Positions 52,538 through 56,903 of a stretch of 64,000 nucleotides of DNA are shown in pieces. This stretch comes from Citrus sinensis (Eukaryota > Streptophyta > Magnoliopsida > Sapindales > Rutaceae), in NCBI RefSeq assembly GCF_022201045.2, contig NC_068559.1:28093501-28157500 (forward strand), written 5' to 3'. Position 1 is the stretch's first letter. Every line of letters starts with the position of its first letter. A program made the position numbers and the translations under genes. Below the pieces are notes generated by a model. The model worked only from the letters and a program-made list of their open reading frames with translations, was not told the origin of the DNA and made no database searches.

Positions 52538-54083
52538 CTAAAACACTGGCGACCAAGTCGTTGAAGCGCTAACCAGATTCATCAGACCGTTCCAAAAATT
52601 CTTGTTCTCTTGATCAAAGTTGCCGCCAACATTTCCAGTAGAGCTCTCTGCTGCATTAATAATTATTGACGAATTGTGATCGTTATCAACAGAATCACAA
52701 ATCATCAGATCCGATGATAAGCCCTCCATAATATTCTCAGCTGTCCTAAACGAATCTTGAAACCATGTGGCAACAGAACCATCCGTAGCGTAAGTCATTT
52801 CATGCAACCCTATCGGCATTGATGAATTGTCCAAATTGTCCTTCGTTCCTTCAATTATTTGGCCCGATTTCTCAAAGCATGGAATTGAATTTCCCACTAA
52901 GTTGTCACTAAATAATCCAACGGCTGGTGGTCCACTTAGTAATACATGTTCGTTGAAGTTCAAAGTTGATGTTGGAGACTCAAGATTATTGTCCCTGCAG
53001 GCTGCCCCAAACATCCCGGAAACTACCCCTTGCCAAGCTTTCAGCACGTCAAGGCACTGGGGTCTACCCGCCGGAGCGGCGGCTTTGCTGGAGCCAAGGC
53101 CAAGCTGATGATCGTGAGGATGATTAGCAGGAGGAGGTTTAGAAACTAGTTTTGATTCTCTGACAAGTCTTGCTTCAGCTTCGAGCCGAGCGCTCTCCCA
53201 CTGAGCCATGTGGCTAAGATTAGCGGTGTCCTTAGGCTGGCCAAGAGGGTTGGTTTTGGGCTTATGGGTCACAGGATCAATACCCATCTTTGTCAGTCTT
53301 TTCTTAAGATGTGTGTTCCAGTAGTTCTTGATCTCATTATCAGTTCGTTTTGGCAAGTGAGCTGCTATTGCCGACCACCTGATCAATGACATTCATTTGA
53401 TTATATATTAGCAATTTAAATTAATGTCCATAATGCTGCTAAATTATAAGTGCAAAAATAATATAATGACAAATCAAATCAGTCTAGCTAGGAATAACCG
53501 AGCTAGCAAAACCAGAAATTAATTAAAGTGTACGTACTTGAAGCACCCTTCGGACATGTACCCCTAGTCATTAGCTCTATCACTTGCTTAGCATTAATAT
53601 TTCTTTAATTATTTTTCATTTGTTAAGAAGCTAGCTCTAGAAAGCAAGAAAAAAGCAACATTTACAATTCTTATATGTTAATTAAAAGAGATCAAAAATT
53701 AAGTTGACCTGTTTCCGAGAAGAGCGTGAAGTTGAATTATGGTTTGTTCTTCCTGCAAACTGAACTTTCCTCTCTTGATATCAGGTCTTAGGTAATTTAT
53801 CCACCTCAATCTACAGCTCTTTCCCCATCTCTGAAGCCCTGCAAGTGCAAACACCCCCAACACCACCCCCCAAAGGAAAAAAAAAATGAGTAAAAATAAT
53901 CGCAAGGTATAATGACAAATATTCTTCGTTATGAAAGCTAATCATATCACCAGCTTTTGCAGGCAAGGCTCGCCAGCTTCCATGGCCATGTTGTTCAATG
54001 AAAGCCAAGAGTTTCTGGTCCTCTTCAGGAGTCCATGGCCCTTTCTTCAAACCCACCTTCTCACAACATGGAGACCTCCCCAT
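52538..54083 (-). CDS. MYB16/MYB106-like: R2R3-MYB transcription factor, MIXTA-like (subgroup 9)
   Basis: Three exons (54083-53951, 53838-53709, 53378-52538) give 367 residues. R2 begins at [20 protein letters not shown] and R3 at [20 protein letters not shown], followed by [20 protein letters not shown]. Introns sit at the two standard R2R3-MYB positions. The motif [20 protein letters not shown] (about residues 155-174) is the subgroup 9 signature of MYB16/MYB106, which in Arabidopsis control cuticle formation and conical or trichome cell shape. [11 protein letters not shown] also fits this clade. An oddity is Trp at residue 49 ([12 protein letters not shown]), where nearly all plant R2R3-MYBs have Cys. 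The rest of the domain is intact. The C-terminus ends STTWSPVF, with no break. Confidence 0.93.
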
Positions 54084-55120: not shown

Positions 55121-55808
55121 TTTTGATAAAATCTAAATAAATTTATTTGAATATTTCAAAGTGAATTAATATGAATTCAAAAATTCTATAATGTTGTAAT
55201 TAAAATTATGGTACTAATAACATGATAAACATATATTTTATAAATTAAACTTGCAACTAGTAAATAAAAGGTCAAACAAGTAAATTAATTATCAAAGCAA
55301 TTAGCATGGTTCTTACATAATTTTAATGAAAAATAGTTTATTCATTTACTTTAATTAAACAAAGAAAAAAAATCACTCATCAATTGAAAACAGAAAAAAA
55401 TGCACTGAAAACAAGTGTAATAAGTTTCATTGAATTGATTTAACCATAAATTTTTCTACATTCATTTTAGGACATTTATAATTTTTTTTTCATTTTCTAT
55501 AATAGTATTTTTTTTCTATACAAGTTAATTAAGTGAAATTATTTATCTTTTGTTTACTACAGAAGTTAATTAAGCGAAATTATTTATTTTGATGTGGATT
55601 AAGCCAAGACAAAATAAAAAGATATTCTTACATTACTAGATACACATATGATATATCAATGAAATTATATCTAATTTTGAGTTTTATACATATTCCATAT
55701 AGTTTTAAATTTTGCTCCTTATTTATACTTGGAGACTATTAAGGGTAGTTGTTGAGGAGATGTATACAAAACCACACACCTTACAACAACTTTAAAAAAC
55801 ATTAAGAG

Positions 55809-56139
55809 GCCACTTCGGCCTTGGCCGAAGTGGTGGGCTGCTGCCCTCACAAACATTGTGAGGGCAGCGGTTCTAGCCCCCACAAAAGCATTGTGGGGGC
55901 TAAATGTTCTTTATATCATTCTCCCTTGCAAAATGCAAGTGGAGTATGGACATCCTCTCCTGTGAGGGGTTATTTGTATTTGGCATGTACTTCATAGAAT
56001 TCATTGTAATAATGTAAGTCCCAATCATGTATATCTGATTGTAAATATCAGTGTAATACCTCTGCTACAATAAGCAGTTGTTGTAAATATCTGTGTAATG
56101 CAGTAATCTGATGATTAATCAGTCTCAAAAAAAAAAAAA
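55809..56139 (+). mobile_element. tRNA-type SINE with three 5' hairpins and poly(A) tail
   Basis: The unit is flanked by a 15-bp direct repeat AAAAAACATTAAGAG (55794-55808 and 56134-56148; the A part merges with the tail). It has a pol III A box TGGCCGAAGTGG (55822-55833) and B box GGTTCTAGCCC (55869-55879) spaced by 35 bases, and ends in a poly(A) tail. Three inverted repeats lie in the first 95 bases: 55810-55820 with 55823-55833, 55841-55850 with 55858-55867, and 55874-55883 with 55893-55902. The last two stems have related loops (AAACATT and AAAAGCATT). No protein is encoded. Confidence 0.8.
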
Positions 56140-56208
56140 CATTAAGAGAATAACTTTTAAAATCTGATTTTAAAAATAAATTTTGTTCTTTATAAAACAT
56201 CAAATGTA

Positions 56209-56903
56209 TAGAGATGGCAATGAGGTGAGGTAGGGGTAGGAAGGCCTACCACATTCCCCACCCCATTAAAAATTTCATCTCCATTTCCCACATCATCTCC
56301 AAAACTTTAGTGTGGTGGAGATGGGGAATCCCTATGTGGAGAATGATTTCTCCATCCCTACCTCATTTCCTATTTACTTATTTTATAGTAAGTATGGATA
56401 AATGATTTCAATAAGTTAAAAACTAGAGATTTAAATAAAATCATTATCATATTATAAAGTATTTAAATTATTTTAAAAAAATCTCTAAAAGGTTGACAAA
56501 ATATCTTGAAATGATATTAAAGATAAAAAATGTTTGAAGAGAGCAACATCTTAAGAGAGAAAAGAAAATATAACAATGTTTTAGAGTTGAATAAAAATTA
56601 TAATGTAGGGTTTTCTTTTAGTTATATTTATTTATATTAGGTAAAAATAAAAAGAAAACTTATTAACCAATAATGTAATTGATAAAACAAAAATTATTGA
56701 ATAAAAATTTAAAAAAAATTCATGCATAATGGGGATTGGAATGTGGTTAGGTGAGGAATGCAAAATCAAACCCCACCCCATTAAGGATTTGGGAAATATT
56801 TTTCCCCCATTTTCCATTCTATTCCCTAAAAATTTTTCAAAATTCACCTCATTTGGGTGGAGCCTTATAGGGCTCCAAACTGCAAAGGATTTTGCCATCC
56901 CTA
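56209..56903. mobile_element. Non-autonomous hAT-type transposon
   Basis: The left end TAGAGATGGCAATGAGG and the right end TTTTGCCATCCCTA are an inverted pair. The 8-mers CAAATGTA (56201-56208) and TAAATGTA (56904-56911) are an 8-bp target duplication with one mismatch. Inner sequence repeats CCCCACCCCATTAA near both ends. No transposase frame. Confidence 0.75.

Follow-up and report, generated by a model that had tools for sequence, protein, structure and literature searches.

A Citrus SINE with its promoter boxes in three predicted hairpins, and the loop inversions and arm losses found at those hairpins

What kind of element carries its putative promoter in a row of three hairpins, and how such hairpins fare as the element multiplies, are the questions raised by a short A-tailed sequence in a 64,000-nt stretch of the Citrus sinensis genome (contig NC_068559.1, positions 28,093,501 to 28,157,500; hereafter the window). 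The element measures 318 bp and is flanked by a 15-bp target duplication ( Table 1 ). A previous sequence-only reading had reported this duplication together with the A tail, and the repeat is exact on both sides, although the six As at its start run into the tail, leaving 9 bp as the unambiguous part.

Table 1. Features of the SINE copy and of its borders, in window positions
Feature	Position	Strand	Remarks
Left target-site duplication, AAAAAACATTAAGAG	55794..55808	.	Exact 15-nt repeat
SINE copy, clade A	55809..56126	+	318 bp
Hairpin 1	55810..55833	+	11 bp; arms 55810-55820 and 55823-55833; 2-nt loop, TT; second arm = A box
A box, TGGCCGAAGTGG	55822..55833	+	Presumed, by consensus
Hairpin 2	55840..55868	+	13 bp; arms 55840-55852 and 55856-55868; 3-nt loop, ACA (GCA in most copies)
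B box, GGTTCTAGCCC	55869..55879	+	Presumed, by consensus
Hairpin 3	55874..55902	+	12 bp; arms 55874-55885 and 55891-55902; 5-nt loop, AAGCA
SINE body	55903..56126	+	Basis of the trees and of the body-chosen sample
A tail	56127..56139	+	Final six As also counted in the duplication
Right target-site duplication	56134..56148	.	Exact 15-nt repeat

The window also contains a PsbQ gene and, on the minus strand at 52538-53392, an exon of a MYB-domain protein, with the SINE about 2.4 kb away on its upstream side. Directly 3' of the SINE, positions 56217-56360 are richer in G+C and show internal inverted similarity (GGGGTAGG versus runs resembling CCCCACCCC); this segment may be another repeat.

The same reading had called the element a SINE, for which many copies with one 5' end and different target duplications were to be expected, and the genome (299.7 Mb in 11 contigs) bears this out. 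Among 710 candidates there are 40 scored copies at 95-100% identity, and copies are spread over contigs C1 to C9. A 20-base pattern from the head, allowing up to 3 mismatches, has 198 genome matches versus 11 for its reversed control, and a 21-base pattern from the body, allowing up to 2, has at least 437 versus none. The copies share a common 5' end and have A-rich 3' ends. In a first set of 132 copies, reduced to 130 by removal of the segmental duplicates L136 and L146, target duplications of at least 10 bp ending at the element start were found in 87 of 130; all 87 are different and 70 begin with AA. When flanks were swapped between copies, a duplication appeared in only 5 of 2581 combinations. 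Three pairs of copies (L130/L136, L135/L146 and L189/L190) share their flanks and each represent one insertion lying inside a later segmental duplication. Perfect inverted repeats and an A tail might equally be looked for in a fragment of an inverted-repeat DNA transposon or MITE, or in a processed mRNA copy; however, no terminal inverted repeats frame the element, its duplications are long and variable, and the A and B boxes and the 5' end shared among copies are those of a SINE, so that such an origin is extremely improbable.

A tree of the body (about the last 212 bases, 132 rows) yields clades A, A1, S, E, B, F, C and D, some of them weakly supported. Clade A is the youngest, with a median body divergence of 1.4%, and the window SINE is a young copy of its family. 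Candidate A and B boxes (GGCCGAGTGG and GGTTCAAGCC, by the box consensi) are present also in the consensus of clade D. The pol III stop TTTT is absent from the consensi of A, A1, E, B and D, and occurs once in each of S, F and C; composition shuffles of the former five contain it in 889-940 of 1000 cases. Searches of the window copy and 7 old copies against the tRNA models of Rfam (E<=10) gave no match, and ARAGORN found no gene. Because no tRNA model matches, descent from a tRNA is argued from the A and B boxes, and the family is probably a tRNA-derived plant SINE.

Three adjacent inverted repeats, with stems of 11, 13 and 12 bp, occupy the first 95 bases of the window copy. The sequence-only reading had placed them correctly but made the stems 10-11 bp long; its location of the A box in the second arm of hairpin 1 and of the B box over the start of hairpin 3 agrees with the measured coordinates. 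Both boxes (TGGCCGAAGTGG and GGTTCTAGCCC) are presumed, being assigned by pol III box consensi; the B box lies partly at the foot of hairpin 2 and partly in the first arm of hairpin 3. It is the window's sole exact instance of the motif GGTTCNANNCC, of which at least one occurrence is found in 47 of 100 shuffles as well. The sequences of hairpins 2 and 3 agree to 82% over 22 nt. RNA folding, which had been proposed as a check, gives -123.6 kcal/mol for the 318 nt versus a shuffle mean of -79.9 (sd 5.0; z -8.77), and none of 100 dinucleotide-preserving shuffles folds as well; in the predicted fold hairpin 2 is lengthened to 18 pairs, G.U pairs included.

The layout recurs across the family. Predicted folds of the consensus heads of A, A1, S, E, B and D contain all three hairpins at -67.7 to -75.3 kcal/mol, and hairpin 2 is shortened in the predicted heads of F (-64.4) and C (-51.4), whose consensi derive from 7 and 10 copies, respectively, under biased sampling. 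The short hairpin 2 of these two consensi reflects its loss from several copies, with differing junctions, and we take it that the sources of both clades had it, as L070, L129 and L138 retain it. A sister family, G (L154 and L206-L223), has the same body joined to a head of different sequence, in which the consensus again folds into three predicted hairpins (-51.9 kcal/mol); hairpin 1 contains the A-box arm, and hairpin 2, with the B box at its foot, has 15 pairs and a further 4. That the promoter boxes lie within three hairpins thus holds, in predicted structures, for the window copy and for the folded consensus heads, and the modelled three-hairpin layout has persisted in the source lineage across several subfamilies.

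Conservation of the stems by paired changes, named in the sequence-only reading as what would support a selected structure, has weak to moderate support. Between clades A and B, hairpin 1 reads GGCCGAAGTGG versus GGTCGGAGTGG, two Watson-Crick versus two G.U pairs, with 11 of 11 positions paired in each. In clade D hairpin 1 has 10 bp and its middle pairs vary (G.U in L075, A-U in L113, C-G in L112), other copies having an internal loop or a mismatch in mid-stem, and the hairpin 2 loop is of 4 nt. Between clade A and family G, 6 of the 15 pairs of hairpin 2 have changed, 2 of them by double change, and all 15 still pair; when the same substitutions were randomly placed on like bases, all 15 pairs were kept in 1337 of 20000 trials, which taken alone is not strong. 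Within clades, arms swapped among copies paired as well or better in 1078 of 20000 permutations for clade D hairpin 1 (17 copies; 752 with distinct arms only), 1571 for hairpin 2 (30 distinct arm pairs, partly hairpin 3 arms from copies lacking hairpin 2), 4799 for hairpin 3 (42), and, in family G, 13213 for hairpin 2 (17) and 16076 for hairpin 1 (15). To judge from these sequences, arms within clades drift nearly independently, with no clear covariation, and the evidence for compensatory pairing is modest. Old copies decay freely, as one would anticipate of dead sequences, and they give no ground for claiming compensation. For individual copies this comes close to a refuting condition of the sequence-only reading, stems decaying without compensatory changes; its other one, a single copy in the genome, is contradicted by the copy count. 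Covariation was dropped as the main proof of the fold, the arm-swap tests being without clear signal, and a MAFFT alignment of 31 heads was left unused for pair counting, as it misaligned hairpin 1 of clade D.

The loops of these hairpins occur in two orientations. Copies were chosen by their body, as the first 100 exact matches listed among at least 437 at up to 2 mismatches, and 98 distinct ones were kept after removal of L164 (the copy already present as L163) and L190 (same flanks as L189). The hairpin 1 loop reads TT in 58 of them, AA in 5 and TTT in 1, with 34 unscored; no one-step intermediate between TT and AA was seen among the scored loops. At hairpin 2 the loop reads AAGCATT in 36, AATGCTT in 10, AAGGCTT in 4, AAGTATT in 3 and AAGCCTT in 2, with nine further forms once each (that of L088 actually belonging to hairpin 3) and 34 unscored. 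At hairpin 3 the same sample has one flip, in L107. The flipped loops are exact reverse complements with length kept; substitution would need three steps from GCA to TGC and two from TT to AA. With one-base variants included, 41 copies of this sample have the forward loop at hairpin 2 and 11 the flipped one (A 25/6, A1 6/2, B 7/2, S 3/1), and the flipped AATGCTT form occurs in all four clades. All loop calls rest on one assembly, in which errors at loops are possible. The GGC/GCC loops of clade E were discarded as flips: they differ by one base and prove nothing.

In the first set, larger but biased by similarity to the query, hairpin 2 is forward/flipped in 29/0 copies of A, 13/6 of B and 10/0 of D; the contrast between 0 of 29 for clade A there and 6 of 31 in the body-chosen sample is one that we attribute to copies of the first set having been ranked by how closely they match a query without a flip. 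The first set also has AAGC in 8 and GCTT in 1 (L070) at hairpin 2, and at hairpin 3 AAAAGCATT in 62 versus AATGCTTTT in 1 (L069), and AAAAGTATTT in 6 versus AAATACTTTT in 1.

The history of the flips was assessed on a body tree of 170 rows, drawn up without L048, L043, L123, L124, D-like copies from the body-chosen sample and any copy lacking the end motif. The 15 flipped among 88 scored hairpin 2 loops require 15 changes on it, against a mean of 14.1 for shuffled labels (range 11-15), and the 8 flipped among 123 hairpin 1 loops require 8 (shuffles 7.9), while membership of clade B, as control label, requires 1. A single clade of flipped copies is rejected for hairpin 2 (p=0.0009) and not rejected for hairpin 1 (p=0.099). 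This tree is weakly resolved, and recombination of RNAs moving flipped loops would also scatter the labels. Because 15 changes are needed on the tree and one clade is rejected, the flips, at least those of hairpin 2, are recurrent or have been spread by recombination. Two or a few source genes with flipped loops, spread by recombination among SINE RNAs or copies and involving no frequent inversion, would account for the identity of the flipped GCA/TGC loops in A, A1, S and B and for the hairpin 1 result. However, L044 and L100 of clade B keep their own hairpins 1 and 3 beside a flipped hairpin 2, which would take a double exchange within about 30 bases, and the flips of L107, L069 and L070 affect loops peculiar to their own clade or hairpin; with the rejection of one clade for hairpin 2, this makes a spread from few sources improbable.

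Hairpin 2 is also a hotspot of deletion. In the body-chosen sample, 73 of the 98 copies align within 20 bases of the 5' end; the 25 others were excluded, at least one of which (L064) does have a head. The 73 copies contain 21 deletions of at least 4 nt: none in hairpin 1, 13 in hairpin 2, 5 in hairpin 3 or running from hairpin 2 into it, and 3 in the body. By length, 2.1 would be expected in hairpin 2 (binomial 1e-8). Damage in the region of hairpins 2 and 3 affects 16 of the 73. Many junctions join the loop to a foot in which the loop triplet recurs: GCA loops are joined to the 3' foot GCAGC, and TGC loops to the 5' foot GCTGC. Among 185 copies, the biased first set included, alignment gives 28 deletions on the 3' side (that of L152 not being real), 11 on the 5' side in 10 copies, and 4 spanning both sides. 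Inspected by eye, the 10 copies with 5'-side deletions comprise 7 that read GCTTGTG, a flipped loop, 2 forward and 1 loopless, and for the 27 real 3'-side deletions L061 and L176 read CACAATG, L071 is ambiguous and the rest are forward or loopless. Loop orientation thus tends to go with the arm lost. An initial count of 30 of 59 deletions in hairpin 2, from the first set, was unusable, since the head pattern required the 5' arm and the queries L040, L075 and L086 lacked the 3' arm. Tandem gains occur as well: one copy, L195 (C5:37423541-37423961), has hairpin 3 and the B box three times in tandem, and L047, L148 and L097 have other duplications of hairpin or promoter units.

The contrast between the sources, which retain hairpin 2, and the many copies in which it is lost suggests that the hairpin may be useful for transcription or mobility. 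If the structured head is what matters, loop flips would be tolerated side effects. Three hairpins are predicted in every subfamily consensus and in family G in spite of the damaged copies, and RNA of the SINE SB1 binds HYL1 in vitro, according to the part of PMC2408557 available; on the other side, the covariation between families is not significant alone. Arguments for and against this account seem to us evenly balanced.

The interpretation that we favour, and consider probable, is that the element is a pol III SINE and that template switching edits its structured head at the hairpins. Transcription by RNA polymerase III would begin from the GCCAC end, directed by the internal A and B boxes, and the A-tailed RNA would be reverse-transcribed by a presumed L1-like machinery. 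In place of a tRNA fold, the head would form three hairpins with the promoter boxes in their arms, and these would be mutational weak points, at which synthesis may switch template inside a hairpin while a strand is being copied. Such a switch could flip the loop between its two arms or, alternatively, use GCA/TGC microhomology to connect the loop with the hairpin 2 foot and so remove an arm. For a flip, we infer that the polymerase copies the loop from the same-sense strand, which would be at hand when the RNA and both DNA strands are together, in second-strand synthesis, or at a replication fork.

The last alternative places the changes in the chromosome. Flips and deletions would then arise after insertion, without retrotransposition, when short palindromes are replicated, as is described for chloroplast DNA and rRNA genes; loops are reported to be inverted by template switches during replication (PMC8794818), and small hairpin-linked inversions to be common in plastomes (PMC12371153). 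Yet the youngest clade, A, already has 6 of 31 loops flipped versus 0 of 10 in the oldest, D, a comparison of small numbers, with the stem of D shorter and its copies drawn by similarity. This contrast makes an origin in the chromosome rather unlikely and, for template switching at the hairpins, leans towards switching at retrotransposition. In a bolder version, the enzyme would change strands within the hairpins in every cycle of retrotransposition, affecting hairpin 2 in about 10-20% of new copies and flipping its loop or dropping an arm. The head would be both generated and damaged by its own copying, and the family would act as a natural counter of template switching; we advance this version tentatively, as somewhat short of an even chance.

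How perfect RNA hairpins originate and persist is an old question, to which template switching is one proposed answer. With about one fifth of the scored hairpin 2 loops flipped in the body-chosen sample (11 of 52) and 16 of 73 copies damaged, the process would become countable, datable and testable between alleles. The family also offers a concrete case in which, in the predicted structure, promoter boxes double as hairpin arms of a plant SINE RNA. A Citrus library with 57 SINE models is described in PMC11397423, as far as the accessible text goes. In the literature covered, with most subscription journals outside the search, no report of loop inversion in a SINE or of this Citrus SINE was recognised.

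The three-hairpin architecture is not new, because it has already been reported for SB1: as described in the available part of PMC2408557, SB1 RNA forms three stem-loops instead of a tRNA cloverleaf, HYL1 binding mainly the first, and a similar fold is possible for most tRNA-derived SINEs (Sun et al. 2007, as cited there). SB1 (S1) of rapeseed and SB2 of Arabidopsis are likewise plant SINEs with a head of three stem-loops, which in the present family is predicted. Compared by description, the stems of SB1 are bulged or mismatched, whereas here they are perfect or nearly so, with the boxes in the arms and the loops in both orientations. In RNA genes, loop inversion is described as a signature of template switching, a process said to create and maintain hairpins, and was only rarely found in rRNA genes (PMC8794818, in the part available). 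The present case shares with that process the inversion of loops between perfect arms and the extension of stems; that work concerns rRNA and microRNA genes and DNA replication, the accessible text being free of the retrotransposon terms looked for, whereas here a retroposon with hundreds of copies is affected. Small inversions linked to hairpins are known from plastomes too (PMC12371153, citing Kelchner & Wendel 1996, in the part available), and they are likewise small, recurrent and tied to hairpins, but they occur in plastid DNA, and those described here in copies of a nuclear SINE.
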